A DNA stretch of 64,000 nt. Source: Pohlia nutans. Its lineage: Eukaryota; Streptophyta; Bryopsida; Bryales; Mniaceae. Positions 18,314-52,711 of this stretch are shown here, piece after piece (the first letter of the stretch is position 1; the number at the start of each line of letters is the position of its first letter). Made by a program: the position numbers and the translations under genes. The stretch lies in assembly GCA_022496805.1 (NCBI GenBank), contig CM040092.1, forward strand, positions 937,555 through 1,001,554. Reading direction: 5' to 3'. The notes beneath the pieces were generated by a model. That model was not told the origin of the DNA. It ran no database searches and saw nothing but the letters and a program-made list of their open reading frames with translations.

Positions 18314-18412
18314 AACAAAAAACAGACGAATAACTCATAAATATGATGGTTAGATAATGAGCAAGAGCAGACGAGTCGGACGACAATGACAAAAAAGGCA
18401 AGTTGCGGAACA

Positions 18413-18894
18413 TATCGGCCGGCAGTCGACAACATGATAGAAGCTAGAATATGGAGAACATATCGGCTGGCAGCTGACAACAGTATGAACATGAGAAATC
18501 GAATTGCACAACACAAAATAAGATCAAGGGAAAGATACAAAAATAAAAGAAGACAAAGAATGATGTGAAAATGGGCTGAAACGCTCATAATATTGAACAG
18601 AAGAAAAACCATCGAAATGATAATTCCAACAGTCATTCTACTACAGAAATAATACAGTATTAACAAAAAAAAAGGTCCTCAAAATGTACAGTTACTGGAT
18701 AAGGACGTCCTCAAAACTACACAGTATGCTACAGAGTATCCAGCTACAGAAATAGATCCTCATCATTTACAATTACTCGATATTAAGTAGGTCCTCAAAA
18801 GTGCAGTCTCTCACAAAATTTACACCTATGCTAAAGATATATAACCTAGGTGTCTAGCAAAACTGGAAAAATGTCTATCGGCCGGCAGCCAACA
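18413..18894. repeat. 19-bp palindromes, cluster 1 (3 copies)
   Basis: Copies at 18413-18431, 18461-18479 and 18876-18894, with small changes in the right arm (GTCGACA, GCTGACA, GCCAACA). They lie in the spacer or intron between the two HAD-like genes. Confidence 0.85.
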
Positions 18895-18979
18895 AGTAGA
18901 GCCCCATCGACTTCGAGGTTGCTCGGTGTCGGAACTTGAAAATCTCCAACGCTAAAAAAATGGCTAGAGATTATTCAAT

Positions 18980-19803
18980 CTACAATTCCCCTAGGATCAA
19001 GCAACTAGCTCCGTTAGCTTTTCGTACCAGAAAAATGCGGGCTCGCCCAAAAGTTTGGTTGGCCTCGAAAAACTCTAGAACAGATTGACCAGAGGACCTG
19101 AGCTTATACAAAAGGGGTTGTAAAACTTGCAAAAGGAAAGGTTTTTGATTCTTCTTCAACTTCGCCTCCGAGTACATCGTGCAGGTAGGTGGGTGAAAAG
19201 CATTAAAAGGATTGTTAAGGACGTTCTTGTATGGGGAGTCATCAATGAGGAGAGTGTTAGCCTTAGTGGCTCCACGCGCCACCAACAGAGGACTGCGTTG
19301 AAACATGTGTTCTAATGGCTTCAAAAAATAAGGCTTCTCGGGAGAGTCCTTGTCTTTGTAAGCACTCTCCCTGCACATACTTTGCCTAAACTGCAAGTAG
19401 TTCTCTGGAAGGCGAGGGACCTTACCCCGAATGAAATCAATCCGAGGAGCAAGGTTGTGCTCCTGGACACAAGACCAGAAACAAATTTTGAACTCACTGT
19501 CCACACACCAATCCAAGAAGTCCGCCAGACCCGGTCTAGCCCTGGACTCACCCTTCTTCATTCCCTTTTTGCCACCCAAAATTTTAGGGGGAGTCCAGTG
19601 AATGAGTGTCCCATTGACGTCAAAGAGAAGAAAATATTTTAAAGGGGCTACCTGCGGACCGGCAGACGGAACTGGCGATAACTTTGCGGTATGAGCAGTA
19701 TCACCCTCGACTGCATTATCGTCCTCTGACTCCTCTCCAGAGTGTGCACACCCTCGGGAAGAGCTATCGTCGCGGTCCGGTGACTCGTATTCACCAAACT
19801 CTG
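18980..19803 (-). CDS. HAD/FCP1-like phosphatase domain protein 1
   Basis: The exon opens after an acceptor TCTTGCAG near 19804 and runs to TAG at 18980. After an acidic low-complexity leader comes a HAD domain: motif I FLLFDVNGTLIHW (DxNG instead of DxDG), RPGLADFLDWCV, motif II KICFWSC, a lysine in KPYFLKPLEHMF, and motif IV TLLIDDSPYKN. The family includes CTD-type Ser/Thr phosphatases; the N in motif I is seen in plant relatives and may lower or remove activity. An upstream exon is likely but not identified. The upstream spacer carries three palindromes. The domain assignment is firm; activity and substrate are unknown. Confidence 0.75.
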
Positions 19804-19915
19804 CAAGAGGATGAAGCATTCATACGGTGAACGACAAGATAGTAGTCAAGCACTCCAAACTCAATAGAAAATGAATGAGTCAGGATAAAATTGAATAGCT
19901 GACGATGATAATTTG

Positions 19916-20057
19916 CATCGGCTGGCAGCCGACATGGCATACTTGTCGGCTGGCAGTGGATACAAAGCCAAGTAGAGGCAGTGAGCTGAATGCTCAAAAT
20001 CATAAAGACACTAGATTCTAAGAAATCCTGATAATTTGTATCGGCTGGCAGCCGATA
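19916..20057. repeat. 19-bp palindromes, cluster 2 (3 copies)
   Basis: Copies at 19916-19934, 19944-19962 (28 bp after the first) and 20039-20057. They lie between the end of the ParB-like gene and the HAD-like exon. Confidence 0.85.
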
Positions 20058-20456
20058 TAGAGCAAAATAAATCCAGTGAGCACAATGCTCAAAATATTGC
20101 AGACAGTAGACACTAAGGAATCCTGCCTATATAAGCGCAGAAGGTTCTAAATAAGGACTTAATCGATGTGAATCTACAATGCTAGTGCAGAATCTATGGC
20201 ACTCTATATACAATAGACTAAGACACTACTCCATCGTCTGGGACAAACCTCCAGTTGGCCGCGGTCGCTTTGGAGAAGCTTGACCCGAGCGCGACGGTGA
20301 TAGAGGCTCATTCGGCGCGTCAAGCTCTGCCGCGTTGTCAGGGAAGTCAATCTCCGCATTCTCTGCCTCGAGCAACCGCTTCCTAGATGTTGCTCCACGA
20401 GAATCAGCGGACATCAGGGTTGACCTCCCAACTCCCCCGGGTAAAAGAGCAGAGGA

Positions 20457-20935
20457 TGTCGGCTGGCGGCCGACATGAGGAAGACCGGATAGCACCGAGG
20501 ACTTCATACGTTCTCCCGCTCGATTATCACCAACATCGACGCTTCGCGATCCAGGCACGATATCCGCCAAGCGCTTCGTGATAACCTCGGACACCAGAGG
20601 ATCATGCAAAATCCACTTGCATTGAGGAACCTCTAAAAATGTGGAGATCCTCTAGGCGCTCTAGTGGAGCTGCCCCTGCGAGGCAGAATCTGATACCGAC
20701 AAGGAAGAAGAGTCCTTCGTAGACTGTGACAAATTGATGTTCTTCCCAGGCGTCAGCGGAAAGCCCGAAGTATCCATCGGCGGTGGAGATGCTGGAGGGT
20801 CCCTCTGTCGGCCGGCAGTCGATACCGGCTGGGAGGATACGGTGGTGGCATGTGTTAGAATGGGGGGAGTTTTATCCAGCTCATCCGCCTCTTGGTCAGC
20901 TAGATTGACTGCACGGTGTCGGCTGGCAGCCGATA
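20457..20935. repeat. 19-bp palindromes inside coding sequence (3 copies)
   Basis: Copies at 20457-20475, 20806-20824 and 20917-20935 are all in the last exon of the ParB-like gene. They are read in different frames: VGRQPT for the first, SxAxR-type words (VSTAGR, VSAASR) for the other two. None introduces a stop. Confidence 0.85.
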
Positions 20936-21170
20936 CAGGTGGTCCAGCAGCTTCATCTAGCGGAATCTCCGGAATATTGGGATCCGAAGTAGTTGGCCCA
21001 ACATCTACGTCGGTGTCCATGTCTTCAGGGATAGTGGGAGGAGCAACGACCCTCTCCAAGTTCATCCCCTTCACTCGATCGTGGGCCCTCGATACATCAT
21101 CCTAGGACCGCACAAATTTGAGAACAGACCTGCCATTCCTCTGCACATACAAGAAATTAGATTAGCAATG

Positions 21171-21189
21171 TATTGGCCAGCAGCCGATA
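21171..21189. repeat. 19-bp palindrome in an intron
   Basis: TATTGGCCAGCAGCCGATA lies in the short intron between the donor at 21248 (GTAAGC) and the acceptor near 21147 (ATGTGCAG) of the ParB-like gene. Confidence 0.8.
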
Positions 21190-22616
21190 GGCGAGAATGT
21201 CAGAAGTAGGGAAATGAAGTAGGAGATGATGATAAAGTGGGAGCTTACCAGGCCTATCTCAGTATCATTACTGCTTCCCCAAATGTTCATGACAGTAGCG
21301 GGCGTCGAATGCAGAGAGGGCTTGAGTAGCATCTCCAGCGTCTCATAGTCGACGCCGCAAAATCCGCCATTCCAGTCTACAGCTCCATCTGGACACGCCT
21401 GGAACCAATCCAAGGGCCTTTGGATTCCAGTGAATTTCTTGAAGACGTTGAAGAGGTCCACCCGCGTCTTGGGATATGACAACGACAATGTGACAAGCAG
21501 ATGAGAGTCCAAATCAGACTTCTTAAATCCAACGCGTTTAGAGGGCTGATAGTACACAGTATGCACCGCCCACGAATTAGTCTCCACACCCGTAACATGT
21601 GAGAGGATATCGCGCTGCCTTGCATTGCTGATGAAGAGCATAGGGACAGGAATCTCCGGGCGCCTAGGCACGTCCTCATCATAGTCGTTGATGAAGACTG
21701 GTTTGTCGGATATCACTACCGCGCGCTTTGCTATAGACAGGATGTCACCTCTGTTGACGAACAACGGGTCTCCTGAAGATGAGTATGCAAAGAGCACAAT
21801 CATCTTGGGGTAGTCGGTGATGGGCACAACGGTTTCTGTACCCGCATCCAGTGCATCTAAGACGTCTGAAATCGAATCCGCGCGCTTGCAGTCATAGAAG
21901 GCCTTTGCACCGCTGATCCCCGCTATTGGAACTTGCACCTTAGTGAAAGACTCCAGAATTTGATGAAAAATTGGGGGAGCAATACCATTCTTGGACTTGT
22001 CCGTTGTGGGATTCATTAGATTTGCGCATCCCAGCAACTACTCATTCCCGTCTGTATACTTCTTCATGTCAGTCCAGATATTCCGGACAATGTCCATAGT
22101 GAAGTTCATTTCCGCCGCCAACTTCTCCCAATCGCTATCGGGATACAAAGTCCAGCCAGCGTCCTTGCACGGCAACGGGTACCCCTTAATCTTCTACAAA
22201 AGCTCGTTCATTATAATGCGATCGAGCTTCTTGTTGCGACACCAATCAGCCAACGTGAGCTTGTCCCGGGTCTTGCTGTTGTTCTTGATGCAGATCCGTT
22301 TCGCAATAATTTCCCTTCCGAGCTCGATGAGATCAGAGTCACTCAAACCCAAAGTTGGGACGAGGTCGGTCTTCATAATGTTTGTCATCGGCACCCGAGG
22401 AACTAAGCCTGGCTCGCTACCGTCATCTCTGATCAGCTCTCCTGCCTCCCATGCATCGAAAACTTCAAGCGAGCCATTCCAGGTCTCGCTCTTAGAAAAT
22501 ACGAGGGGAAACTTACTTGAGACCTTCTCCTCAACAAAATGTGCCATCACTTGGGCCTTTGCAGCCTGCAGAATAGACAAGGAGTTGTGTTAGACTATGA
22601 ATCCCACAAGCGTATA

Positions 22617-22751
22617 TGTCGGCTGGCAGCCGATACATCATTCGAAGAAGCATAGCAAACCTGATATGATATCCTATCGGCTGGCAGCCGACACATGATA
22701 TGACAAAGGAAAGCAAAGGAGAAGTGAGATCCTATCGGCTGGCAGCCGACA
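22617..22751. repeat. Three 19-bp palindromes at exact 58-bp spacing in one intron
   Basis: Copies start at 22617, 22675 and 22733. All three are in the 208-bp intron 22566-22773, which joins ...KPSAAFE to AAKAQVMAHF in phase 0. More than a quarter of the intron is palindrome. Confidence 0.9.
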
Positions 22752-22773
22752 GACACTAAGCATAATGAATTAC

Positions 22774-23260
22774 TTCAAATGCTGCAGAAGGCTTGCCACC
22801 ACCTTGATGTGGCTCTGGGCATCCAGCTCTCTTCCAGGCGGCCCTACCAAGCTCGGCGTAAAAGCGGAATGTCTCGTTCGCTACCTTCTCCGCGATGTTC
22901 AAATTTAGTGCGTTGGAGACTCTCACTAGCACCTTTGGATCATGACTGAAGACCGGGATCACCTCGAACTCGAGCAGCTCCTTGCGTGCTTCAGAATTAG
23001 CCAGAAACTGCTCTGCAAGCTCACGACAGGCTGTAACAGTGTGTTGTCCACCGATTATGTACCAGTGGACATTCGGGTGCTTCCACCACGCAATCTTGGA
23101 ACCATCGGGCATCGTTGTAAGGGCATCCTCCGCGGGAATCGAGTTCATGACAGCATCTATTCCGCTGTCAGTTAACAGTGGCGCGCGTTTCAGCGGAACA
23201 CCATGGATCTCAGGCTTCTTCGTGATTGCTCCATAGCCCTTGTAGATGGTCTTTACCCAT
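22774..23260 (-). pseudogene. ParB/sulfiredoxin-like exon of the large gene
   Basis: Within this exon the segment WYIIGGQHTVTACRELAEQF matches the GGxHR-type box of the ParB/Srx fold (the ParB N-terminal domain and related nucleases). It is preceded by a TDSGIDAVMNSIPAEDAL segment compatible with the ParB boxI helix and followed by FEVIPVFSHDP, compatible with the next strand. In bacteria the ParB domain binds CTP and loads on parS palindromes; plant relatives are uncharacterised as far as I know. The arginine of GGxHR is a threonine here. Recognition rests on a short motif. Confidence 0.6.
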
Positions 23261-23301
23261 CATCATGCGAAGAACATGGTCAGCTCAGCCGTATAGAAAG
23301 G

Positions 23302-23320
23302 TGTCGGCCGACAGTCGATA
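23302..23320. repeat. 19-bp palindrome at an exon-intron border
   Basis: TGTCGGCCGACAGTCGATA lies just downstream (minus sense) of the lysine-rich exon of the ParB-like gene, probably within an intron. Confidence 0.75.
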
Positions 23321-24300
23321 GCAATGTACAAATCATACAAAGTGACAAAGACTGAAAATTCCCCTGACCCAAGCGCTCCTTGGCGATTCTCCTGTACTTC
23401 AGCTCGTCCGGCGCAATCTGGAGCTTCTCCAACGGAATCACACCCGGAAGCCTCCGTTTCTTATAGGGAAACGCATGCCCAAGTCCGACCTCCAACACCT
23501 TGTAAATCGAGTCGATCTCACTGTCCTTCGTCTTTGTCGACATTCGATTTCCACGCAATAAGGCTTCATCTAGTGACAGAACTAGCTCCTTCCTAGTAGC
23601 GGCCTTGCCCTGCTGTTTTGGCTTGCTGCCCTCCCCGGTTTCTTGATCCGCTTCCTGATCAATTGCTTTTCCCATCCCTGGAGCACCTCTCCTCTTCCGC
23701 GACGGGGTGGCCTTCTTCTTCCCTTTCTCCTTCTTCTTTGCCACAGCCTGCTCTTCCTCTATTGCGGCTTCAACAATCAGATTAGCGTTGATTCGAGCAG
23801 AATTCATCGGATCCCACGAACTAATGAACTCATCGAGATCTGCGGGGGACGAACCCTCAAATGTCATGCCTTGCTCATTCGCCGCCTTTCCGCAGGCTCT
23901 CTCGGTGCACTTCAACCAGGGAAGTAATACTGCTATGTTGTCAGGCTGACCGTTGGATTCACCAATGGGCATCAAGCTGATGAGCAGATCGACTTCTCAC
24001 CCGCCTCCGCAACCGCAAGGATGCAACCATGCCCAGGCATCACATTTCCCTTCAGGACGATTGTGCATACAATTTCGATTTGTTTAGACGCGCCCTCCCT
24101 CCAGTAAAGACCCCACTCTTCAATTGCTGGGTTTCCAGCCCACACACCGCGGGGAACAATGTCGAAGCATTTCACATCCGTTCTGGCTAGGGGCGCCCCA
24201 AGCAGCTTAGTGAGGAGACCCGACTTCCTGCATTGTCATAACAATTATAAGTCTCTATCGACACAAAATCACTACCCGATGTTTGCAAAAACACAAATAG

Positions 24301-24644
24301 TGTTGGTTGCCGGCCGACACCAAACCACTATGGGCAACCCGAGCTGATCCCTGTATAGGGAATTGTATCGGCTGCCGGCCGATACATCAAGATAAACCTA
24401 ATTCTTTCAAAGACCTACCAAGAGTTCAAAGATAAGAGATGAGACAAAAATTTTCTCTGTTATGTTCCGGTCGACTACGTTGTGTGCTTGGTCACGATTG
24501 TATCGGCCGGCAGCCGATAGGAAGTTTGCTATCGGCAACCAGCCGATACAATCAAGCACTACTAATCCTCAATCAGGCATTGACCCAATATACTGTATTG
24601 GCCGGCAACCGACATCTGCTACCGCTATCGGCTGCCAGCCGATA
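24301..24644. repeat. Dense palindrome cluster in a divergent intergenic region (6 copies)
   Basis: Copies start at 24301, 24366, 24501, 24530, 24596 and 24626; two pairs are 29 and 30 bp apart. Half-sites follow near 24856 and 24880. This is the spacer between the minus-strand ParB-like gene and the plus-strand gene at 25856, the natural place for a shared promoter. Confidence 0.85.
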
Positions 24645-24896
24645 CACTGATCAGATGAACAAAATAGCAGAGATGTGCGTACCTTGGGTTCGTGGCCATC
24701 TGATCCTGCGAAATTGCTGTAAGTATCGGTGCTGCTGGTCCCGGTATCAGCTGGTGCACTCCCCAGTATAGGCTGGTACACTCCATGTATCGGCAGCTGT
24801 AGCAAAGGTGTCGGATGTTGTCTATCCTGTATTGGTTGGTGCAGAAAAGTAGTCAATCGGCTGGCGGACAGAGCGCGAGTATCGGCCGCCAGCAGG

Positions 24897-25020
24897 TAAG
24901 AGAGGAGGGAGGGAAGGTGAGGGAGGGAAGGTGAGGGAGGGTGAGGGCAAAGGGAGGTGAGAGGGAAGAGTGAAAGTGAGGAGTGAAAATGAGGGAAAGT
25001 GAGAGGGGGAGGGAGAGTAA
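24897..25020. repeat. Purine-rich GAGGGAGGGAAGGT tract
   Basis: About 120 bp of almost pure G/A on the plus strand with several GGG runs, in the divergent spacer. It could form a G-quadruplex or triplex, or be a CT-rich promoter element read on the minus strand. Confidence 0.75.
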
Positions 25021-25614
25021 CCCCCACCACCATCCCTCATTCCCTCCTCCGTACCATCATTGCGCACCCGCCAGTCAATTCGTACGCCGCCAAAGTGTCA
25101 AATAAAAAGATTCCATCCATCCTATCGGACGCCCGCCTACACATTTTCATCCACCCTACTCACTAGGTTGCAATCATTACTCTATTCTATCAACAAATTA
25201 ATCCATTCCAAGAAGTTCATCAAAGATCAAATTCATTCCAAGAACTTCCAAGGAGTTTGAAATTTTCTTGATTTTGGCGCCAATTGCGCATGGGAATTCC
25301 CCTGGGGTATCCATTATGCTTCCATTTTTTTCATTTCACTCTAGGATTGTTGCGCCAACTGCTGACCTCTGAGTTTAGGTACTCTTTCTCTCTGTGATAG
25401 AATTTTGTGGCAATTTTGATTCTAGCGTGTAGAATGAGCCTGGCACTTTGATTCTAGAATGTAGAATTATGTGGCAATTTTGATTCCAGCATGTGGAATG
25501 AGCTTGCAAGGTTGTTGGTTTTGATTTTTGAGGTCTTCTGAACCCATTTGGCATATCTGAGCATTCTGAGCAATCGTCTGGTGTACACAATTCATTACTC
25601 CTATGTTGTGCCAT

Positions 25615-25850
25615 TATCGGACGCCAGCCGATACCGTGTAGCTCACCAGCCGATATCCTCATGTGAAATCGGTGGTCACCTAATCCCTATCGGCCGCCGG
25701 CCGATCCTGTGTTCGCTCTTTGCCACATATTGCGTGAAAGTCGACTGAAGTCTGATTCAGAATTTTTTGTTCCATTCCACAGTTTCTGTGTTAGGTTATC
25801 GCTGTCCTCCCTGAGTTGTAGTGTCTATCCCTATTGGCTAGCAGCCGATA
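25615..25850. repeat. 19-bp palindromes upstream of the plus-strand gene (3 copies and a half-site)
   Basis: Copies at 25615-25633, 25688-25706 and 25832-25850, plus a half-site near 25638. The last ends 5 bp before the ATG at 25856, in the presumed leader. Confidence 0.8.
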
Positions 25851-25855
25851 CAATT

Positions 25856-26824
25856 ATGAAGAGATCACTTCCTTTGACGCTGGATACTGAATCAATCGAC
25901 TCTTTCACCAAGAATGGTAGCTCTGGGCGATGGAAATTGGGTAAGGGAGTGGTAGTTGCGTTAACCCACTCCGAATTCTACTATGCCGGACGTGCAGTTA
26001 TCAATTGCATTGTCTCTCGCGACCCGTTTCTCCTTGATGTGCGGGTTCTGGAAGTTTCTGACTCAATTGAGATGATCATACTTTACCCTACGGGTGACCT
26101 TAAGTATCTCAGTCAATGTGCTGGAAGAAATATCGTTTGGGAGGAGCGATATGTGAGACCATATATTGATGAGATTGATACTGTTCCCAAGCCTGTCGGC
26201 TGGCAGCCTACACCGGACGGTACTAAGGAGAAGCCCATCGATCAATTCCTTACTCTCACGGTGAACATGGAGGTAGCTCTTCTGCACAGTGACGGATGTG
26301 ACCATCATTGTGCTAGAGTGGGAATCATCGTGGAGTGCTCTCCAAAGGGAACTTGGGAGGGATTCCGTGCATCTCATAGCTTTTTCGTCATCGTTCGACT
26401 CATGACGGTGAAGAAGGATTTCTTAGGCTTGGCGGCATACTGCGAGAATTCAGATCTGTCTTCCCTTTGTGATTGCCTCGGATATAGAATCTTATGGAGC
26501 GGATACAAGGTCCGGCCGTTGGATCCTTCCTTCGCAAAGGAACATCCTATCGGCTGGCAGCCGACATTGCCAAGATTGAAGAAAGTTAAGCTAGAGGCAG
26601 ACGACAGCGGAGTGAACAATGAATCACCAACGAACGAAGGTTGTGGTAGTTCTGGGAATGCACAATGTGGAATAGGTCTCATGGAGTCCGAGCGCAGTGA
26701 TGACGGTGGCTCGCAGACGGATACGCGAGTAGGTAGTGGCCTTGAACTGAATGGTCATGCTGCCAACTTCGACTATGTTCATTCAACTCCTCTCGACCAG
26801 AGCGACGGTCCGAGCAATGGATAG
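25856..26824 (+). CDS. Unknown protein with internal duplication, cargo of the host element
   Basis: About 322 residues from the ATG at 25856 to TAG. The frame opens earlier (25709), but the extra residues include a translated palindrome and look like leader. Two repeats are visible: residues about 30-105 (VVALTHSEFYYAG ... YVRPYID) and about 135-225 (EVALLHSDGCDHH ... YKVRPLD), each with the pattern ALxHS, a central hydrophobic strand, LSxLxxCxGxxIxW and [YK]xVRP. Each repeat is followed by one in-frame palindrome encoding VGWQPT or IGWQPT. The tail is acidic and low complexity. I do not recognise the family. Transcribed divergently from the ParB-like gene. Confidence 0.6.
   Translation: MKRSLPLTLDTESIDSFTKNGSSGRWKLGKGVVVALTHSEFYYAGRAVINCIVSRDPFLLDVRVLEVSDSIEMIILYPTGDLKYLSQCAGRNIVWEERYVRPYIDEIDTVPKPVGWQPTPDGTKEKPIDQFLTLTVNMEVALLHSDGCDHHCARVGIIVECSPKGTWEGFRASHSFFVIVRLMTVKKDFLGLAAYCENSDLSSLCDCLGYRILWSGYKVRPLDPSFAKEHPIGWQPTLPRLKKVKLEADDSGVNNESPTNEGCGSSGNAQCGIGLMESERSDDGGSQTDTRVGSGLELNGHAANFDYVHSTPLDQSDGPSNG
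26194..26212 (+). repeat. In-frame 19-bp palindrome encoding VGWQPT
   Basis: TGTCGGCTGGCAGCCTACA inside the gene at 25856-26824, directly after the first internal repeat of the protein. Confidence 0.9.
26548..26566 (+). repeat. In-frame 19-bp palindrome encoding IGWQPT
   Basis: TATCGGCTGGCAGCCGACA inside the same gene, directly after the second internal repeat. It is the last copy before the nested CACTA. Confidence 0.9.
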
Positions 26825-26903
26825 GGCATACTAGAATCAGATGTTGGTGTAATGTTCGTATCTGAGCACGAATCACTGCAAATGACGACAATGCGTTGGC
26901 CGT

Positions 26904-27060
26904 CACTACAAGGAAACGGGCACCGAAATGACTGGAAGTTGACAGAAAATTGTCCAGAATGACGAACTCAGAGTTCCGGACCCCGACTTCTGTCAGTTCT
27001 TTCAATTTTATGCGTAATTGACAGAATTCTGTCAATTTTCCATTGGAAAGGTACACCGTG
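26904..27060. promoter_or_regulatory. Left terminus and subterminal motifs of the CACTA
   Basis: After the terminal repeat come GTTGACAGAAAATTGTC, CTTCTGTCAGTTC and TTGACAGAATTCTGTCAA, so the core TGACAGAA is present in both orientations. By analogy with En/Spm, such arrays bind the TNPA-type protein. Confidence 0.75.
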
Positions 27061-27983
27061 GACCTCCCGTCCAGAATTAGCGGAGTCCTGTGCCTACGTG
27101 TAAAGGCTGCTGAACATGTCCTCTGTATGATGCCTTAGGTATAATAACGTATCCATTACCCAGCTGTGAGTGACAATACTAGTATTCATGTCGCAAATTT
27201 TAAATATATATTATCATTAATTACATATATTCAGATCAAATAACGACTACAATTTTTAACATGCAACAAAAAAAATATGTACATGTACGTAAGAGATGTA
27301 GAGTCCACCAAGTTAGATATGTTTTGTTTAAGAACACGTACATGCATCGGCAAGTTCTACATTACTCCACCCTGGAAAGAAAATCCTTGTATTGTGAAGT
27401 CCTTCTGTCTAATTTGCTATCTTTGATTGGGCAAATTAAAACAATCCTCTAATTTATTTTTATCTCAAAATTCTGTACGTTAACCTCACATGATTGCCTC
27501 AACTATTTTGAGTACCTCATAGGATTACACTTACATCGTCCCTCACAATTCTGTAGCATAGGTGTATATAGAACTTGTTGTACTACTCCACAGCGTTGTC
27601 AGTGTAAAAGGTAGCGCTGAATTTCAGAATCCTGTCTCCTGTACACATTCAAGTTCATTTGTGATTTTAGAGTGGTTTTAGGTGAAACTGGAACTCTTAC
27701 TTCTTGATAGTAGAAAAAACAAAATTCCTTTCCTCATAGTACGTAAATGGCTTTCAACTAGTGATACACTTGTGAAGCAGTAAATGTCATACTTAGGTAC
27801 ATTCTATGAGAGCATTTTTTACTAAAAAAGAACATGTATAAGAAGGAAAATCCAAAATATAATATAATATTGTCATGCTTACTAGAACGACATTCATTAA
27901 TGCAATGCAGAATCGGTTTATCCTTGCCTGTGAATTGCCCAGTCGCCACAGAAACCGCGCACTACCTCCATAACTGTCCAATT
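27061..27983. other. CACTA left non-coding region
   Basis: AT-rich, with no recognisable gene. It lies 3' of the TNP2 gene and may hold its 3' untranslated region and terminator. Confidence 0.5.
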
Positions 27984-29177
27984 CTACAGTTCTCTGTCTG
28001 AAGTCTCCTCATTCTCTGAGTGATCTGAGGACATGCCAGAAGTCGAATACTCTGTGGACGTTTGTTCTTCCCCTGAAGTCCAACCCCCCTCGCTGTCATC
28101 GTCCTCTCTTGGATTCTGCCTTTGCCGCACGTTTCTCTGTTCCCGGACTTCGTTCTCTGCCGTCGTGCTTCTACGTCCACGTAGTCCCCTGTATAGCCGT
28201 TCCTCTTCGTGTACTTCGTCTTCTTCGCTGTCTACAGTCTCTTCCTGCTCTCTTGCTATTGGTGTGTTCAAATTGGCACGCCTGCCAGTTGTGGCTCCTC
28301 GACCACGTCCACGGCCCCCGTGTCCACGTCCTCTGCCCCTGTTCAGTCGAACGACTGGTTGTATTATCACATCTTCCCCAGTTGCTGCCGGTTCTACATC
28401 ATTTTCTCCAACCTCGCAGTCAGGTCGTAGCCCTTCAAAATCTTCGTCTTCCCCCATTCGAAATAGTTCTGCCTCCTCTTCGTCTTTATTATTCGGTACG
28501 ACTCGCTTCCCTCGAACCTCCTTCCTCAATACGACTCTCCACCCTGGTGACTCCCAAGCCCTGGAATAAGACACCTGCTCACAGTGTCTAGGGAATGCGA
28601 AGCTATCTCGGCCTAAAGTACCGTATCTTCTGTCAAAGTTCGCTAATGTGAACCCCCACTTGTCGCGTTTTATCGTCGCATTGTCACCATTGTAGTTCGC
28701 TTTCACAAAATTGCACACCAAAACCACCAAACAATGTCGTCTATAATTCAATTCCAGAATTTCCTCAATGTGCCCTACATATTCTACATCTGCATCCACC
28801 TGGTTAGCATATCTTCTACCGTTCTTGCAAACCTGTCTAAATGTTGTAGCGACGCCACTATCACATGTTCGGAAGGGTCGCTCAGAGCTTAGCACTCTAT
28901 AATGGTTACCATATGCGAACATGGACTTGTAAGCTGCAGCTACAGGTAACGGACCTCTAGCGGTATCTACTACCATTGGATCCACAATTGCGCCGAGCTG
29001 TTGCTCCCGTCTCACCTCTTTCAGGACCCATTGCGAAAATTCTGGAATTTTGGAGAGTTCTGGTGGGTATGCGAACCGGTATCTCCTCCCATGTCGACGT
29101 TGATCACGTCTATACTGCTCTCTTTGTTGATCTCGCTCAGTCACAGCCTCTGCGTATTTACTATACAATGACCACAT
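27984..29177 (-). CDS. CACTA TNP2 gene, last exon (DUF4216 and RG-rich acidic tail)
   Basis: An open exon of about 397 codons. Residues about 85-245 match the DUF4216 domain found at the C terminus of plant CACTA transposases: YKSMFAYGNHYRV, CDSGVATTF, VEYVGHIEEILELNY, KWGFTLANF and WRVVLRKEVRG. A GRGRGHGGRGRGRG block follows near residue 285, then an acidic serine-rich tail to the TAG. The true 5' splice border was not identified: in-frame stops lie just upstream of the first ATG. DUF4216 has no known enzymatic role. This is the best preserved part of the gene. Confidence 0.8.
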   Translation of the reverse strand: MWSLYSKYAEAVTERDQQREQYRRDQRRHGRRYRFAYPPELSKIPEFSQWVLKEVRREQQLGAIVDPMVVDTARGPLPVAAAYKSMFAYGNHYRVLSSERPFRTCDSGVATTFRQVCKNGRRYANQVDADVEYVGHIEEILELNYRRHCLVVLVCNFVKANYNGDNATIKRDKWGFTLANFDRRYGTLGRDSFAFPRHCEQVSYSRAWESPGWRVVLRKEVRGKRVVPNNKDEEEAELFRMGEDEDFEGLRPDCEVGENDVEPAATGEDVIIQPVVRLNRGRGRGHGGRGRGRGATTGRRANLNTPIAREQEETVDSEEDEVHEEERLYRGLRGRRSTTAENEVREQRNVRQRQNPREDDDSEGGWTSGEEQTSTEYSTSGMSSDHSENEETSDREL

Positions 29178-36200: not shown

Positions 36201-36561
36201 ATTAGTATGTATGTACAGAAAACACCTTGAACAGAAAAGGACGTAGAGCCTTTATAATGGTGCACTTTTCCAATGAATCATACAATTATAAGGGGAACAA
36301 CATCCCGTAATTAGTGTATTAGGACTATTCTCTACAATGATGAATTGTTGTATTTGCCCAATATTTGTTAGAGCACTCTTGACACATAAATAGGACAAAA
36401 CCACACTGAAGTCATAGCATAAAGCAAAAAACTGATTCATTAACCGTAATGTTCCATGGGAAAGACAATACAGAAGGTCGGTATTGGAACACCGACCTGT
36501 GGCACAATGCCGGTGATATGTCTATGTGCGCCTAAGATCCCTAAAACAATGAACGTCTATG

Positions 36562-44000: not shown

Positions 44001-46053
44001 ATAGTAGAGTACGAGACAGATCGGCGGGTCGTAGTGATCAACATCGACGGTATGTGAATTATGGGGAGCGAAATCCGACCTCTGATCGCTGTGGAAGTCC
44101 TGGTGTCGAAGAAGGGCATAGAAGTTCTCCAAGTTCTCTAAATGTCGGTGATGGCAGAGACTATTCTTTCTCTCTCTTCGAAGTATGTATTACACTAAAG
44201 TTATTTCTGTTTTGTTTTGGAGAGTAACGGGAAATTGGATGGTAAGTCCTGTTAGGCAGAATTCCCGTAGCCTGGATATATGAATTACACCAGAATGGGG
44301 TACGGAGATAAAGGCCCAGAATTCTATCGGTCTGATGTTGGTATGTAGTATGCTACAAGGGTAAGAACATGTTTCCTACAACGGTGTTCTGTTATGTATG
44401 TGAACGTTGTGTATTAGCTACAAACGTGAATTATGGTTTCCAAGTTCTAAAGCCGTGACAGTCAATAAGGAAATGATAATGTACTGCAGTAGCCGAAATT
44501 CTGAATACAATCCACTGTTCATTCAATTGTAAATCCAGGACGTGGGAAGGGAGCGACATCATAGAGTGAAGCAAACAATGGGGACATCAGAAGAACGTGG
44601 ACAGCACCAGCGAGAACCGTACTCTTTTTACAATGACAACGAAGATGACGCTAGCAGGGACAGCGAAGAGGACGAAGATGAGGGAGATCGTGCAGAGGAG
44701 CGAGAGTATTCAACAGACCATGACGAAAGTGCTGTACTAGACCCGAAACCGTATGCAACCGAAACCGAGAAACGTAGGGAAATGAGACATGCTCAAGCAG
44801 CGCGGGAAAGAGAAGGCGAGAGGCGAAGCAGAGCAGGATTGCCTCGAAATTACCTTTTGATAGACGAACACACAAGAGAGCCATATGGGCAAGGTGTTGG
44901 TAATTGGAGGAAAGAGCTTATGCTTCTGTCTAGAAAATTGGACCCAGCAATAGGTTGTATAAATAATCAACCTGAAATCCTTGTCAAAGAAATTGCTGAT
45001 TGGATCCAGCACACCTGGGAATACAGTGGGCCAATCAAGGACAAGTATGTCAAAGAGGTTATAGCCCGCGGAGTGTTGCTGAGACGGTCTGAGTTGTGGA
45101 ACAAAATTAGGCGAGATGAGCCTAAACCGAAGGACGTATCAGACCGCACTTGGCGCTCATTGGCCAAGGAACTGCAGAATCCAGCGACTATAAGGAAAGC
45201 TGAGGACTGTAGCCGTGCAAACGCAAGTCGGGTAAATTTCGGAAGAACTGGCCCGTCAGGTGAGGTGGGCGTGCGGCAGAAGCTTAAGAGACGATTTTGG
45301 AGGTCCCCCGATCCTGACGAGGTGCAGTTCGAAATGGTGCGAGACAAAGGATATGGCGGACGCTCCAAGCGTAATCAAAAATTTGATAATGTCATGCATG
45401 GAAGCAAAATGGGAGCAAAGCCAATGGAGGAAAATGCATTCCAAGAAACTGTCGGTCATGAAGAGTGGGAGTCTCCTAGAGAAGACTGTAATCCGCCTAT
45501 GCAATCTCATGTACCAGTTGGAGGTGAGCGCAACAGTGAGGAAGATGTGCAACCTGCAAAGAACACAGCTCTAACCTCATGAGTGTTATCTATTTCAGAG
45601 GGGCAGCTCTCCCAACATCCAATGGTGATTAGACTGATGCAAAGGTTGGAGGCTCTGGAGGAGAGGAATCATCACAGCCCACTTCCAATTCAAGCACCAC
45701 AAGTTCATAACATATCCAAGGAACCTGCTCATGAGCCATTAGAGCAGATTGCAGTCGAAGAGGAGCCCATGGCAGAAGTACCACGTGAACGTACTACTGA
45801 ACAACACGGGGTGAGAATTCATGTCATTACTAGATAGCGGTCCTCTTGTGTTTTGATGCAGTGTATTAAAATTGAATTAAACAGTGAAGACATGATACTT
45901 TGCATGAATATGAAGTAGAGGTTGTATATGTAATATACTCTTTATTTAAAAAAATAACCTTTGACACAGGGTGCGGAAGATGGTGCGGACCTACAAGGCA
46001 GCCAAGCAACAAGAAAATTTGGTCGCACGAAGAAAAAATCGAAGCGGTCTTAA
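41007..46053 (+). pseudogene. CACTA second gene, TNPA/Ptta-like (Transposase_24-type), multi-exon
   Basis: Exons from splice sites and phase: 41007-41345, 42341-42520, 42626-42775, 43070 to about 43592, about 43760-44182, 44539-45523, 45599-45810 and 45970-46053 (stop). The start is the ATG at 41007. Exon 1 is acidic and serine-rich; middle exons are basic or proline-rich. The long exon carries the recognisable domain: PKDVSDRTWRSLAKEL ... GVRQKLKRRFWRSPDPDEVQ, similar to the plant Ptta/En/Spm transposase family, then a short coiled-coil-like VIRLMQRLEALEERN. The last exon ends KKKSKRS. An in-frame TAG at 43943-43945 interrupts the fifth exon. In En/Spm, TNPA binds subterminal motifs; this is the presumed equivalent. 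Confidence 0.65.
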
Positions 46054-47182
46054 ATAAGTAAGTCCTATGTCAATGAGTTCTTATTCCTATATTTCAGAAT
46101 GTAGCACCGATTACGATGTCTCCATGTCTTAGTTGTATGCCCCCCAATAAGAAATAATTAACATATAAAATCACTGAATAAGACACTTCTTTCAGCTTGT
46201 ACATAAAGAAATAGATAGTTTTGAATTCAGTGCATAGTTGGACTCAAGTTTACTCCATTATATAAGCAGCTAGTGATATGTTTCATAATCTTGTTCTTCA
46301 AAGTTGTATCACAGTTGTGGATCAGGTGTATATTTGTAGATTGAAAACAGAGAGGCAGATTTTATCCACCAGCACTTGACACAGCAGTGGATGATTATGT
46401 GCAGGGCAAGCATAATTAAACTGAGATGCAAATGTTTGGAGCTTTACACGAGGAAAGGAAGAACAGTGTATATCATGGCCTCTCAAAACGTACAGGAACT
46501 ATGCACAATCTATGCTTGGCAGGCTATGTAGACAGATAGTGATGTCCACACTTAACATACCGGCTTATTCACTATCAAGTTCTACTTGTCAATAGGAGGA
46601 TAGTACACAGACTTAGACGGTCCTAAACATTCATAGTGTTAATGTGATTCTATGAGTCATTTTGGACAATGCAGCAGTGTGCTCAATTGCATCAGGACAT
46701 TCGTCCGTAGACAGGTCCTCCTGTCACAACTGTCCACATGGATATATACAATTTTTTTCTACATACCCTTATTTCCATGGTGGAAAATGTAATTGGTTGA
46801 GCAAAATCCACATCAGCAGGCTTTACTAATTTGCAATTCAGTAAATGTGAAATTAAAATGCTACCATTCGTCCAGTTGTGAGCACCTCTCGAAAAGGGAG
46901 GACACGAAGTTTCCAAGAAAATGCGCTGCAACGACTTACGGACTTTAACACTGCCATTTACTAATGCCATGACAGTTACTATAATGCTGACGTGGACCAG
47001 TAAATCCACTGTGGCAAAGGGTTCAAGAGATACAAAGCTGACGTGTATAAATGTCCATAATGACAGCCGAATCAACAGAATTTTGTCAATCCCGTAGCCA
47101 AATCAGGGTCTCCTAATTGACGGGACAGTTGACATAAAACCGTCAAATTTTTGTCAAATAAACCACAGATGTTCTTGTAGTG
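46054..47182. other. CACTA right non-coding and subterminal region
   Basis: No gene. The last 130 bp carry TGACAGCC, ACAGAATTTTGTCAAT, TTGACGGGACAGTTGAC and ACCGTCAAATTTTTGTCAAA before the terminal GTTCTTGTAGTG. These correspond to the subterminal words at the left end. Confidence 0.7.
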
Positions 47183-47286
47183 CGTTATCTCGCACTAGAC
47201 TCGAGGATGGTCGGCTTCTATTTGATATTGTAACGCTCTGCTCTGAGGCTGCTCAGTTGGACATTCTGGACTGTGCCGGTTTGTAA

Positions 47287-49956
47287 GGTATTCCTCGAAA
47301 TCCCTATAGATCTGTTCGTCGAAAAATCTTATCCAAAGATCAGCCCCATGTATCCAAATTGAAATTCAAGACTTCGGAGGATGAGGTTCGGAAGGTTAGT
47401 TCTCAGAGGTGCTGCAAGTATAGGTGCTGTCAGACATTTCCTTGGGAGTCCACGAGGATCCTCGGTCGCAAGTTCTATTCTTGCTCATTTGAAATCACGA
47501 GAGAGACAGCGTATGCTGTCCAAACACAGCTTCATGTTCGTGCTCCCGGGGGAAGGAAATTCATTACCTTTGAAGTTGTTGACATCTGCAAGAACGCATG
47601 GTACATTATTCATGGAGTCTCAAGATCTGCATACCACGTCTATAAGGCTGCAGCTGTAGGAAGAAGCGTTAGCGGGTCGCATGGAAATTCAGGATCACTT
47701 CGTCCTCGTCCCCAATCCCCACTCTATTCAAGCCCGAGCAACCCTGTAGAAAATCATTGATGAAAATGCTGACCAGATGCCAAACGAGTTCAGGCTCGTT
47801 GGTAATAAGCTTGTGGATAATCTGAAGGTTGTCCCCTCTGCAATGAATTGGGACCATATGCGTGAGCAGGTGAACTATGTACGTCTGTGCCCTCTGATCT
47901 CCCTGCTCGTTGTTTTGTTGTTGGTTTTTATCTGTCGGCTGCCAGCCGACACATTTGTCCCAAGCTGAGTCTACGTTGGGTTTGTGCACTCGGCCACGTT
48001 CGTTGGGCATGCGCGGCTTCTTTGCAATATGTCTCTGTGCCTTCGGACGTTGGGTGTGTTGGCCGACAGCCGATACGATTTGCAATGTCCTGCAAATTGA
48101 TTGGATATCATTTCTTGTTGGCTGGCGGCCGATAGAATTCCGTCGCCTTCATTCTAACACTCTCTCCTGCAACCGGCTAGCAGGTTAATGAGAAGTGTAA
48201 TCACAAGCCTGTCTTGCAATCAACTATGAGTGTGCTTCGAACGAACCATTTCAGAATTGTCGAGGTGAAGGCTGTTGAGAATCACAAAGGCCACTGCTGG
48301 CCTCGGACAGATTCCTATTTCCTGTATTGGGATGTTGACTCATGGCCACGTGATGGTGCGTATGCCCACTATTCTACAGCACTGTGGCCTGGCGATTCCA
48401 ATTTTACTATATCCTCTTTGTGTCGTGTCTTGCGAGCGCTGGAAAGGCCACCAATTCGTAAATCCCGGGAGTTGTTTCCCACACCGCCACAAAATAGCTT
48501 CTTTCAGGCTCTCTTACATGGCAAGTCTAGGTGCTTATCTTCTATACCGCCCGCTACTAGGATATGTACAGTTCCTCCTCTCCATGGACGCCCGGCGGTG
48601 CCTCTTCCTAAGAAGCTCTTCTTGCAACTTGATAACTCCGCCAAGGACAACAAGAACAGATTTGTAATGGCCTTCTGTTCTTTACTAACTTCTAGGCGCA
48701 TATTCAAGGAAGTCACTGTTGGATTCTTGATTGTTGGTCATACTCATGAGGACATTGATGCGCATTTTAGTTACTTGTCCAAACTTATCAAGTGGAAGAA
48801 CACCTACGTTGTAGCAGATCTCATGAAGGCTTTCATGGACTCTCAGAAGACGGTGGCCTTCATTCCCGAATTTGTTCAAGTGGTAGCAGATTTCAAATCA
48901 TATGTTAAAGACTTCCACCACGACGGTGTCAACAAGATTGTTGGATTGGGTGATATGCATCTCTTTAAATTTTTTGTCGAGGAGGACGGAGATGATTGAG
49001 GTTGGCCAGTGATGAGATACAAGAAGCAAGCAACTGATTCTTTTTGGCTCCCGCCGGGTCCTCTTGTCAAGATGTGGACGGCCGACTGCCACGGTAGACC
49101 TCGTTTTCCAACTAGTGATCCACATCCTGTTCCATTTAAGCCATTATGGGGAGTTACGGAGGTTAATCCGAGGAAATTGAATTCTGAGAAGGAGCATGCA
49201 AGGGCTAGTGAATGCACAGAGAAGCAGGGTTTCATTAGGAATGGAATTTCAAAGTATATTGAGTTTTGGAAATTCGGTATGGCCCGTAACAGAAGATACT
49301 CTGAGGAGATGGCCGGATGTGTTGCTTACTGGGAGCGATTCTACGCGGAGATCAATTCTCCATTGCCCACAGCGCCTGCAGCACTTGTTGAGGGATTTTG
49401 GCCCGTATCAGATTGGTCTCGTGATCAGGCTCGTGCAACCCCGGATTCTAGATCTAGTCCATCTAATTCGGAGGACATTACGCCCGAGGATGATGTTGAC
49501 CCTTTTCCTTATTGTGGTCCGGCAAAGGGGAGACCAAGGTTGACTTTCAATCCATTCCGAGTTGTGCTGCTTGGAGACTTTGTTCTGTGTCGACCAAGCA
49601 ACAACCATTACCTACCTGTTTGGCTTGGACGAGTGCTAGAGTGTGTCGACCTTTCCCTGAGCTCCAACTACGGCAACTTTAAGGTAGAATGGTGGATTCC
49701 TATGAGATCAAAGAAGGAGGGAAAGTCGGTTGTCGCCAGGGAGTGTTGGACACGCCGTTGGCAGAAAGAGCCTTGTCTCCCTCAAATTGTGAACGCTAGC
49801 ATTGTCTTGTTCTCTCATAGAATGCCCTCGCATGCCAAAAAAGGGCCACCTGCTACTCATGTAATTCCTGAGACATTCGTCGCAGCTGCATTGGCGAATC
49901 TTGAAGCCGCTGGTGCTGTAATGGAACAGGATATTGAAGATGAAGCGGACGACTAA
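47287..49956 (+). pseudogene. DUF7869-type putative transposase of the host element
   Basis: A first block at 47287-47760 has CKYRCCQTF and DICKNAWYIIHGVSRSAYH with GSHGNSG. A second block at 47756-47880 (IIDENADQMPNEFRL) follows after a frameshift and a TAG near 47747. An intron runs from about 47880 (donor GTACGT) to 48183 (CTAGCAG), then a long exon 48184-49956. That exon includes LPKKLFLQLDNSAKDNKNR and VGHTHEDIDAHFSYL, which I recognise as the core of DUF7869-family proteins, probably RNase H-like transposases. An in-frame TGA at 48997-48999 splits it; the same frame continues to 49956 with KFGMARNRRYSEEMAGC, a possible chromatin- or DNA-contact tail VEWWIPM. The CACTA lies about 100 bp upstream of this reading frame and probably cut off its 5' end. 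Confidence 0.7.
47933..48134. repeat. Three 19-bp palindromes in the transposase intron
   Basis: Copies at 47933-47951, 48057-48075 and 48116-48134 (the last two 59 bp apart), all within the 304-bp intron. These are the first copies after the nested CACTA. Confidence 0.9.
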
Positions 49957-49964
49957 GTGCCGCC

Positions 49965-50044
49965 TATCGGCCGGCAGCCGATACGCTGTTTGTGGATGTA
50001 TTCCTACTCATACTCATTGACGACCTATCGGCTGCCAGCCGACA
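49965..50044. repeat. Two 19-bp palindromes just after the transposase stop
   Basis: Copies at 49965-49983 and 50026-50044, 61 bp apart. The first begins nine bases after the stop codon. Confidence 0.9.
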
Positions 50045-50050
50045 CGGAAC

Positions 50051-50505
50051 TCAGGTGAATTCTCGTTGGCCGTTCTTACCATCCCATGCGCCTGTTGTAT
50101 TGAGGAACACGCCGAAGATACTCAAGACATGACGAGGCTTGCAACCATGGTGTGCTCGCCCTTGGTGAGGTAGTCTCTTCAGCCGATTTATGTGCTCGCC
50201 CTTGGTGGGGTAGTCTCTTAGCTGTGTCCCTCATTATCTGGAGTAGATTTTCTCTCATAGCAAGTGAACTATGAACTGACCTCAGGTGGATTCTCGTTGG
50301 CCATTCTTACCATCTCTTGCGCCTGTTGTGTGGCGGAACACGCCCAAGATATCGACATGACGAGGTTTGCAACCATGGTGTACTCGCCCTTGGTGGAGTG
50401 GTCTCTTCTACGGATTTATGTGCTGGACTCTTTATCGGCTGCCAGCCAAATACTCCTCTTAGCTATGTACGTGATTGTCTTGAAGTAGATTTACTCTCAT
50501 ACCAT
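50051..50505 (+). repeat. Tandem duplication, period about 231 bp
   Basis: Both units start TCAGGTG[AG]ATTCTCGTTGG and contain GTTTGCAACCATGGTG or GCTTGCAACCATGGTG and CTCGCCCTTGGTG. In unit 1 the CTCGCCCTTGGTG segment is itself doubled. A palindrome at 50433-50451 is in unit 2. Confidence 0.8.
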
Positions 50506-50560
50506 TGTCTTCGGCCAAATTGGCTGGAGATTTGTACAAAACAACTTTTACTTTGGTTAG

Positions 50561-50760
50561 AGACAAGGTAGATGGAGCCTTGTCTTCCTCAAGTTGTTCA
50601 CGTTAGTATTGTCATGTTCTCTCACATGATGCCTTCGCATGCAAAGATGGGGCCTCCAGCTACTCACGTTATCCCTGAAGCCTCTGTCGCAGCTGCTCTG
50701 GCTAACTTGGAGATTGCTGGCGTCGTAATGAATTGAGACGTTGACAATTATTCAGAGGAA
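50561..50760 (+). pseudogene. Second copy of the transposase 3' end
   Basis: The frame reads EPCLPQVVHVSIVMFSH, then PSHAKMGPPATHVIPE and ASVAAALANLEIAGVVMN before TGA. This is about 75 percent identical by eye to the last 60 residues of the gene ending at 49956. It is a partial tandem duplication of the 3' end including the downstream spacer; a palindrome follows at 50773-50791. Confidence 0.8.
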
Positions 50761-50772
50761 TAAACTACCAAG

Positions 50773-50791
50773 TGTCGGCCGCCGGCTGATA
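50773..50791. repeat. 19-bp palindrome after the duplicated 3' end
   Basis: TGTCGGCCGCCGGCTGATA, in the same relative place as the copy after the main transposase stop. A half-site follows near 50867. Confidence 0.85.
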
Positions 50792-51239
50792 CCTCTTGCC
50801 TCTTACCATAGTTAGTTATATGTCGTCGGACCACTGCTTCCACCAACCTCAAAATGGTATCCTACCTCTGTCGGCAGATTACCTTGCTACTAACTTAAAT
50901 TTTGTTAATCTACATCTCATATGAATTTTTTGATGTTTGTAATATGTGAATGTTGTCATGTATAATCTCTATGGTTGAATATCATCAAAACCATTTAGAT
51001 TATTTGTAAATGAATTCTAAAAGAAATGTTTTGAACATTCACAAGAAGTGCATTATTCAATTATATTTTATGTTGCACTAAATTGTTATCACTTATAAGT
51101 GAGAAGTTCTACACTTGGATAGAAGTTACGAAGATTTAGAGTTTACAATTTGTCTAAATGTCAATTCATACGAAACTATGTAACAATAATGTAGACTTGA
51201 TAGTTTAAATGAAACTCATGTCCAATGGATATTTAATCA

Positions 51240-51640
51240 TCTTATTACCCTTTGGCTTTTAGTTAATTCTACCAAAATCAAAGAGATATAATTAATTCTG
51301 TATATTATGTGAATTATGGAAGTTTGTTAGTGAGATATTATATATATAATTGTATATGATGAATTTTAGGATTTGATCAGTCATTCCAAAATCCAAAATT
51401 AGATTTGGAATTGAATACAATCAAGGACAATAAATACCCGTCAATATTAATCTTGTGCTTTTAGCCAATTTTACCAAAATCAAAGATAAATTATTTCTTT
51501 TTATATTTTATGTGAATTATGGAAGTTTAGTAGTGAGATTTGATATATATAATTGTCTATGATGAATTTTAGGAATTAGATTTGGAATTGAATACAATCA
51601 GGGACAATTAATACCCATCATTGTAAATGCATGCAATTGA
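51240..51640. repeat. AT-rich tandem duplication, period about 211 bp
   Basis: Two units share CTTTTAG[TC][TC]AATT and ACCAAAATCAAAGA, then GTGAATTATGGAAGTTT, then GATTTGGAATTGAATACAAT. No coding potential; 50800-51880 is otherwise empty of genes. Confidence 0.75.
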
Positions 51641-51890
51641 GAGGGCAAGGTACATGGCCTAGATTACTTAGTGCTCTCTAGGATACTCTAGGTACTTTGT
51701 GTGAATGGCGGCTCACATGAGAGTGCAATTCATTTGAAGTACTCTCCTCTTCCAACATTTCAATATTTAGATTTGTGAGCTTCTTCTCCTTCACCATTCA
51801 CTTCTTTCCCTTCCTCATTCACCTCCTCCTTGTTTTTCTGGTCATAGCCTTCCTCCTCTATATCTTTGGAATTTGTGCAAAACTTTCACC

Positions 51891-52367
51891 ATGGATTCTA
51901 GACTCCCATCCCATGAGGATCCACCTCTCCCTCCTCATCCTATGTGTCTGGGATCACTGACCGGGTACTTGTGGTTTGTTTACAATTCTGATGCATGTCT
52001 CCACAGAACTCTTCCTCCTCATCCATTGTTGCAAGGGATTGTTAGTGTCGCAGATGATTGGTTTTGGAACTACCACTGTCACCTAGAGATGTCACAGTTG
52101 GAGGCTCATTCTGGCATTGCATATGTTGAAGTGGCAGACCTTGTGAATCGTCCATCGACAGATTTACTTCGCGACGTGGCAGTGATAAAAAAGGAATGCG
52201 GGTGCGTGCAACTTGATTTCTGCGATTGTTCTTTCACAGCATCGAATGAAAGCGAGAGGAAGGAAGTGATTAATATATCATCGGATACATCTCCCAATTC
52301 CACGGTGCAGAACGATGTGGTTGGAAATTCGGATGCCGCATTAGTGGGGAGCAACCGCCAATTTTAG
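51891..52367 (+). CDS. Unknown small protein of the host element
   Basis: 158 codons from ATG 51891 (context ACCATGG) to TAG 52367. Visible: proline-rich start, then GYLWFVYNSDACLH and PLLQGIVSVADDWFWNYHCH, a middle acidic helix-like stretch ending in ECGCVQLDFCDCS (four Cys), and a serine- and asparagine-rich acidic tail. No family recognised. The leader contains two CT-rich blocks. Palindromes are found 250-325 bp downstream. It could be a terminal exon of a larger gene. Confidence 0.5.
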   Translation: MDSRLPSHEDPPLPPHPMCLGSLTGYLWFVYNSDACLHRTLPPHPLLQGIVSVADDWFWNYHCHLEMSQLEAHSGIAYVEVADLVNRPSTDLLRDVAVIKKECGCVQLDFCDCSFTASNESERKEVINISSDTSPNSTVQNDVVGNSDAALVGSNRQF

Positions 52368-52618
52368 TTTTCACATAGGCAGCACCTCCCGGAAATTTTG
52401 TTTGGCGGTTGATTTTGAGATAGTAGCGGTGGGTTTTCGGTTTGCACAGGCACGAATTTCGCCTTGTTCATAGCGGTATTGCGAATTTTGAGGCACTAAG
52501 GTTTTACAATTGTGAAGATATGAAGTAGTGTAAGTATTTTGTTGGCTAGCTTAGTGGCCTTTGCTCACTGGTCAGGAGCATGTACAAATGTATCATGAAT
52601 ATTTAGTAATACTACCGA

Positions 52619-52711
52619 TGTCGGCTGCCAGCCGATACCTCTAGCTTGCTGGTTATATGTCGTCCTTCTGTTGGATGTTGATCTCAACGGTGTATCGGCT
52701 GCCGGCCGATA
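52619..52711. repeat. Two 19-bp palindromes near the right limit of the host element
   Basis: Copies at 52619-52637 and 52693-52711. Degenerate relatives near 53318 and 53408-53426 are the last traces to the right. Confidence 0.85.

Follow-up and report, generated by a model that had tools for sequence, protein, structure and literature searches.

Dozens of near-identical 19-bp palindromes in one transposon of the moss Pohlia nutans raise the question of what the element gains from a single word repeated in its exons, introns, leaders and spacers. The transposon (W) lies in a 64,000-nucleotide stretch of contig CM040092.1 (positions 937,555 to 1,001,554; the whole stretch is referred to as the window). 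A preliminary description had offered protein-binding sites or self-spreading mini-palindromes, or both, as explanations. The present analysis argues for the former: the palindromes are probably (roughly 0.7) sites of a dimeric protein which is encoded by the element and co-evolves with them, and which would most likely serve an anti-silencing function like that of VANC in Arabidopsis.

Palindromes of the window and their carrier

The palindromes follow the pattern TRTYGGCYG-S-CRGCCGAYA, with half-sites TRTCGGCYG around a central G or C. Scored against T[AG]T[CT]GGC[CT]G[GC]C[AG]GCCGA[CT]A, 16 of the 34 palindromes listed in the preliminary description are exact, 14 have one mismatch, three have two and one (50433) has three, so that all start positions given there are correct. 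Chance can be excluded, as had been claimed, since 20 shuffles of the 64 kb yielded on average 0.0 matches at up to two mismatches and 0.15 at up to three. The latter threshold adds sites at 17609, 24880, 25123, 53317 and 53409, and every one of the resulting 39 sites falls within 17.6–53.4 kb of the window. The flanks and the interior of a nested CACTA element (coordinates in Table 1) contain no palindrome at up to three mismatches, and a de novo search for repeated palindromes revealed no cluster there, bearing out the earlier view that the rest of the window is free of them. Thus, the palindromes of the window are real and restricted to one transposon bounded by terminal inverted repeats (TIR).

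Both ends of W carry the TIR AACT(T/G)(G/A)TATTTAACTAATTATGGA, and the 4-bp target site duplication (TSD) has counterparts of equal length in two further copies, E2 (TCAA; C1:12.398-12.413 Mb) and E1 (AAAT; C1:3.397-3.419 Mb). E2 is a recent sibling, its main aligned blocks being 93–96 % identical to W. It also represents the empty site of the nested CACTA element. The palindromes had previously been assigned to one element, which is correct insofar as they belong to a single transposon, but this transposon is split by the nested one; the palindrome-free middle (26.6–47.9 kb) is accounted for by the latter being a separate element. A CACTA/En-Spm identity of the carrier itself was considered and ruled out, given the TIR (AACT...ATTATGGA), the 4-bp TSD in three copies and the confinement of TNP2 to the nested element.

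W and E1 share their gene order: two genes for NIF-like phosphatases followed by the GGQHT gene on the minus strand, and on the plus strand a divergent gene as well as a small open reading frame (ORF). The divergent gene comprises two predicted beta-barrel domains, a segment with an RCC...CC motif, DUF7869 and a C-terminal part. Barrels, CC segment, DUF7869 and C-terminal part are taken as one protein, here named transposase. In a related lineage (type C, see below), CC segment, DUF7869 and C-terminal part share one open frame of 1163–1171 codons, the intron apparently being read through; the N-terminal part of this relative resembles the barrels by eye only, the tblastn match not being significant. 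The DUF7869 exon of W scores 130.7 bits against a PF25273 cut-off of 26, which places W among the DUF7869 transposons. Since the exon lacks a stretch that homologues have, the DUF7869 gene of W is probably not functional.

Most sites are noncoding. Inside frames defined by tblastn lie 5 of the 39 element sites, with three more in ORFs of 141–146 codons, while much of the remainder occupies introns, leaders and spacers that W and E1 do not share in alignment; the palindromes are therefore not ordinary conserved coding sequence. Within the GGQHT gene they occur in open frames near the 3' end (20457, 20806, 20917), between exons and in the leader. The two sites in the transposase exon (26194, 26548) encode VGWQPT and IGWQPT, and low model confidence in these stretches suggests that they are likely linkers.

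The genome-wide scan suggested in the preliminary description covered 697.8 Mb in 332 contigs, with the reversed pattern as control. It yielded 1714 cores of the palindrome of W (type A) versus nine for the control. Among the 50 places of A cores that were listed, all on contig C1, 41 fall into five clusters.

DUF7869 lineages and their palindromes

The genome harbours four DUF7869 transposon lineages with four different palindromes (A to D). The underlying search listed 160 places with DUF7869 (150 of 1693 candidates scored), and the palindrome content of eight DUF7869-bearing loci was examined (W, E1, E4, L037, L043, C10, C2 and L019).

The first sign of type B came from homologues of the barrel protein which have IGGPPI or VGGPPT where W has VGWQPT. 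The corresponding word (TATCGGCGG-N-CCGCCGATA) is read in all three frames in database proteins (YRRSAD/CRRSAD, IGGPPI/VGGPPT and SAARR), and none of the 145 proteins examined (120 of 234 DUF7869 homologues, plus 14 and 11 others) was seen to carry both this word and that of W. The exact 17-bp core of type B occurs once in the genome, at 0.5 kb from a DUF7869 exon of 79 % identity; this 5.5-kb locus has two B sites flanking the exon, one on each side. Because of this single occurrence, the proteins with B words cannot all come from the present genome.

Type C, a large group with 61–65 % DUF7869 identity, has a 20-bp palindrome (YATCGRGRGATCYCYCGATR) of which 26 sites (up to three mismatches) were found in two loci totalling 19.5 kb. 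They are located in the transposase leader, ahead of DUF7869 and downstream of the gene; further sites follow a GGQHT exon or stand in the GGQHT leader, where they form an array (spacing mostly 60 bp). Type D, a 42 % relative on C1, has the palindrome TTAGGTCGA-N-TCGACCTAA and is known from one locus plus the genome count. Three degenerate sites were seen just upstream of its gene, and the 3.5 kb further upstream then gave ten more, amounting to 13 sites (up to four mismatches) of which eight are spaced at 76 bp. Genome-wide, there are 196 exact C cores and 940 D cores versus none in either control, the patterns used to count A, C and D being of unequal length.

A single base forms the centre in A, B and D, and none in C. 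Gene-structure positions of the palindromes are shared by A, B and C. At two mismatches, the C loci contain no A, B or D sites and the D locus no A, B or C sites; in a 76 % identical locus (C13), one exact type A site is accompanied by a few decayed ones. Compared to A, the palindrome differs at one half-site position in B, at more in C and throughout in D, the respective DUF7869 identities being 79, 61 and 42 %, so palindrome divergence seems to run in step with that of the protein. A different 17-bp palindrome (TGCACTGATTCAGTGCG) is present in four copies at 7038–8886 of locus L020, near C1:21.943 Mb.

These observations are consistent with a dimeric protein from the transposon that would bind the palindromes of its own family, site and protein diverging together in every DUF7869 lineage examined, such that each family would answer only its own protein. 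Candidate binders are the DUF7869 transposase and the divergently transcribed GGQHT protein. The transposase was found in all four families and the GGQHT protein only in A and C, whose versions are 29 % identical (E=3e-13), not in the incomplete B and D pieces examined; the transposase may for this reason have an edge as predicted binder, although either protein could fill the role. The former label ParB-like for the GGQHT gene has no profile support, neither Pfam (E<=1) nor NCBIfam (E<=5) nor PDB profiles (E<=10) giving a ParB match. According to the proposed mechanism, the arrayed sites of both leaders, the introns, the coding linkers and the end regions were multiplied locally through tandem duplication, and the leader arrays together with the intron and linker sites would spread the bound protein across the whole element, much as VANC does and further than transposition ought to require. 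The protein would thereby keep or make the family's own copies active by sequence-specific anti-silencing, a step proposed by analogy with VANC; autoregulation or transposition is a close alternative.

In its strict form this alternative, i.e., that the sites bind the transposase just to bring about transposition (end recognition, synapsis) or to repress its own genes and have no link to silencing, is considered rather unlikely. TnpA sites of En/Spm elements provide a precedent, no gene other than that of the transposase was found in all four families, type A has degenerate sites near both ends, and there are arrays in the transposase leader. However, the majority of sites lie far from either end, scattered through introns and coding linkers along some 16 kb, and end recognition should need less than that. 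Moreover, such functions are compatible with anti-silencing, as the roles are not mutually exclusive.

Conservation of sites and independence of arms

Over long times the palindromes resist divergence. Counting alignable sites and setting gaps aside, substitutions relative to W amount to 18/189 in palindromes versus 1774/7568 in the rest for E1, 21/185 versus 1180/5527 for E4, and 2/38 versus 268/1022 for E3. Between the recent copies W and E2, palindromes decay about neutrally, as expected of dead copies, both at CpG (18/164, 11.0 %, versus 159/1058, 15.0 %, in the rest) and at non-CpG positions (24/470, 5.1 %, versus 468/10861, 4.3 %). Of 15 gene-structure slots (counted by inspection), 13 are filled in both W and E1, even though most of the intron and spacer sequence cannot be aligned; the right subterminal slot (three mismatches) is filled only in W, and only E1 has the slot in an intron within DUF7869, there being no such intron in W. 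In six tandem arrays compared (four of type A, one each of C and D), palindromes are 0.89–0.93 identical and spacers 0.40–0.79.

The number of units differs between tandem arrays, reflecting gain as well as loss of units. Along W (17609–53409), sites on the left are centred on G and those in the middle and on the right mostly on C, forming 11 runs versus 19.5 after shuffling (P=0.003), which hints at local copying or polarity. Variable unit number and clustered centre bases would both be in accordance with a functionless homogenisation, by gene conversion and tandem turnover, as the source of palindrome identity. This explanation is nevertheless very improbable: homogenisation has not extended to the spacers of those arrays, coding linkers and introns contain single sites that belong to no array, and recent copies decay neutrally. 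In loci L024-L025 (C1:37.9897-37.9919 Mb), the leader of a GGQHT gene is inversely duplicated with palindromes kept on both arms.

Even less can be said for the palindromes as self-spreading units, each copy being a tiny mobile insert jumping within the element. The identical word across exons, introns and spacers would suit such inserts, as would consensus words devoid of stop codons in all six frames. Alignment with the related element E2, another check proposed in the preliminary description, speaks against them: 33 of 40 window sites align fully and all 33 are sites in E2 as well, six fall within a deletion of E2 and one is cut by it, and the additional sites of E2 sit in tandemly repeated stretches. 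Between W and E2, the one close sibling compared, no precise gap left by an individual palindrome came to light, and families share slots yet differ in the word. The DUF7869 gene is missing from E2 through a deletion (47931–50867 in W) that ends at two CTGTCGGC words, such that palindrome half-sites may act as deletion end points.

The two arms vary independently, as half-sites of a dimeric protein would. In the window, pair 2-18 is AT in 12, GC in 5, GT in 12, AC in 10 and AA in 1 of 40 sites (17 matched, 23 unmatched). Across 144 sites from six loci, which stem from related copies and are not independent events, 66 are matched at this pair versus 76.3 expected under independence, and 68 versus 75.6 at pair 8-12; the arms of one site differ by 1.875 on average as compared to 1.710 ± 0.055 for arms shuffled among sites. 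The notion that outer positions often change together in such a way that pairing is kept is not borne out by these counts, and pairing is therefore hardly what is selected. The data would fit a dimer in which either subunit reads its own R (position 2) and Y (position 8) independently. Selection for hairpins of RNA or single-stranded DNA (processing, pausing, cruciform) is hardly credible in spite of nearly perfect 9-bp arms, given that arms do not covary and are no more similar within than between sites, that equivalent slots carry differently spaced words (A and B 19 bp, odd; C 20 bp, even), and that a one-base loop makes a poor RNA hairpin. The independence of half-sites, their long-term conservation and the different palindromes per family, partly at the same places, thus support protein binding.

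Comparison with known systems and further features

According to two studies (PMC5735166, PMC10398659), VANC21 binds a short motif that is dense in VANDAL21, the element loses methylation along its entire length, the motif evolves via tandem repeats, and a related VANC has other motifs. The P. nutans palindromes resemble the Arabidopsis system in being short, family-specific, dense in one family of transposable elements and rare elsewhere (A, C and D counts), in forming tandem repeats with differing unit number, in differing between related families (here A, B, C and D), and in occupying introns, intergenic and terminal regions. They differ in being 19–20 bp palindromes, whereas the VANDAL motif YAGTATTAY has 9 bp and is arrayed in one orientation; the carrier is of the DUF7869 type with a 4-bp TSD.

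Three other systems share some features. CACTA (En/Spm) elements contain many subterminal copies of a short TnpA site and are thus similar in accumulating a protein site in one DNA transposon, partly near its ends. However, the sites of W span the whole element and its genes, its ends and TSD are not those of CACTA, and the genuine CACTA nested in W has no such palindromes. Bacterial ParB-parS likewise involves palindromic sites, as found here next to the gene earlier called ParB-like, but W has no match to a ParB profile, dozens of sites and a eukaryotic transposon as context. REP/BIME and Rickettsia palindromic elements are also short palindromes that extend into open reading frames, whereas those of W show no evidence of independent insertion, belong to one transposon in the window and have a family-specific sequence.

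Several points weigh against a VANC-like dimeric protein. VANC motifs are mainly noncoding, and some sites here are coding. Neither a VANC domain (DUF1985, DUF287) nor a Mutator-like (MULE) transposase was found in the ORFs scanned with Pfam, which comprised 10 element ORFs, one more ORF, nine other window ORFs and type C ORFs, i.e., part of the exons. The search of the GGQHT protein against Pfam, NCBIfam and PDB profiles gave nothing relevant. Type B amounts to one 5.5-kb locus plus peptides, all 13 sites of the D locus are in the leader with intron and 3' slots empty, and the loci inspected for palindromes number eight versus 160 listed. Nine of the 50 A cores listed stand by themselves in no recognised element, tblastn having detected no element gene in the nine 10-kb loci around them; hence, isolated GC-rich cores form a background that exceeds what the reversed-pattern control would indicate. 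Finally, a concerted switch of dozens of dispersed short sites between families would be required.

Table 1 Features of transposon W and its insertions in the window (strand given for genes)
Feature	Position	Strand	Remarks
TSD CATA, left copy	17418..17421		4 bp
Entire palindrome-bearing transposon (W)	17422..53592		~15.9 kb own DNA plus nested CACTA; same ends in E1 and E2
Left subterminal palindrome	17609..17627		degenerate, 3 mismatches
NIF-like phosphatase gene piece	17735..18334	-	PF03031, E=1.8e-5
25 of the 34 listed palindromes (18413 to 26548)	18413..26566		many at 24.3–25.9 kb, between two divergent genes
NIF-like phosphatase ORF	18980..19819	-	PF03031, E=1.7e-7
GGQHT gene, multi-exon	20229..23996	-	exon limits approximate; earlier label ParB-like
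Transposase gene exon 1	25862..26821	+	two predicted tandem beta-barrel domains
Nested CACTA (En/Spm) element	26904..47182		20.3 kb; 3-bp TSD CGT
Transposase exon, RCC...CC motif (DUFn)	47287..47757	+
9 of the 34 listed palindromes	47933..52711
DUF7869 exon	48181..48996	+	PF25273, E=6e-38
DUF7869 protein, C-terminal part	49000..49953	+
Insertion CACTACTAG...CTAGTAGTG	52930..53268		339 bp; missing from the corresponding position of E2 (3-bp overlap of alignment ends)
Right subterminal palindromes (53317, 53409)	53317..53427		two, degenerate, 3 mismatches each
TSD CATA, right copy	53593..53596		4 bp

The two NIF-like (CTD-type) phosphatase genes (17735–19819) are carried by the transposon, and E1 has relatives of them. 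In the nested CACTA element, the domains TNP2 (PF02992) and DUF4218 score above and DUF4216 below the cut-off; it also contains long inverted repeats at ~32918–33957 and plus-strand ORFs at 42989–43669 and 44533–45579. The 339-bp insertion adjoins a telomere-like GTTTAGG tandem repeat (53271–53302), and a 91.5 % identical copy is present elsewhere within E2 (C1:12406202–12406540). GTTTAGG repeats and CACTA elements are both in keeping with a plant genome. Outside the transposon, a tandem array of a 21-bp unit (AGTTGATATCATGAGGGATAT) extends from 14690 to 15220.

No paper was found in the literature under the name DUF7869. Tentatively, and at slightly less than even odds, one may speculate that DUF7869 transposons carry a general address system, in which a private palindrome per lineage, distributed over leaders, introns, coding linkers and ends, is rewritten as a set at lineage splits and read by the element's own protein. 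Sequence-specific self-recognition and anti-silencing would then have originated a second time, independently of VANDAL. If true, a single genome houses several sets that do not depend on one another, apparently at least four orthogonal protein-site pairs, and, unlike in VANDAL, the palindromes are also placed within coding sequence. The recognition of their own copies by selfish elements and the joint change of dispersed sites and protein become directly testable, and if the role is indeed anti-silencing, the VANC strategy would have arisen more than once.

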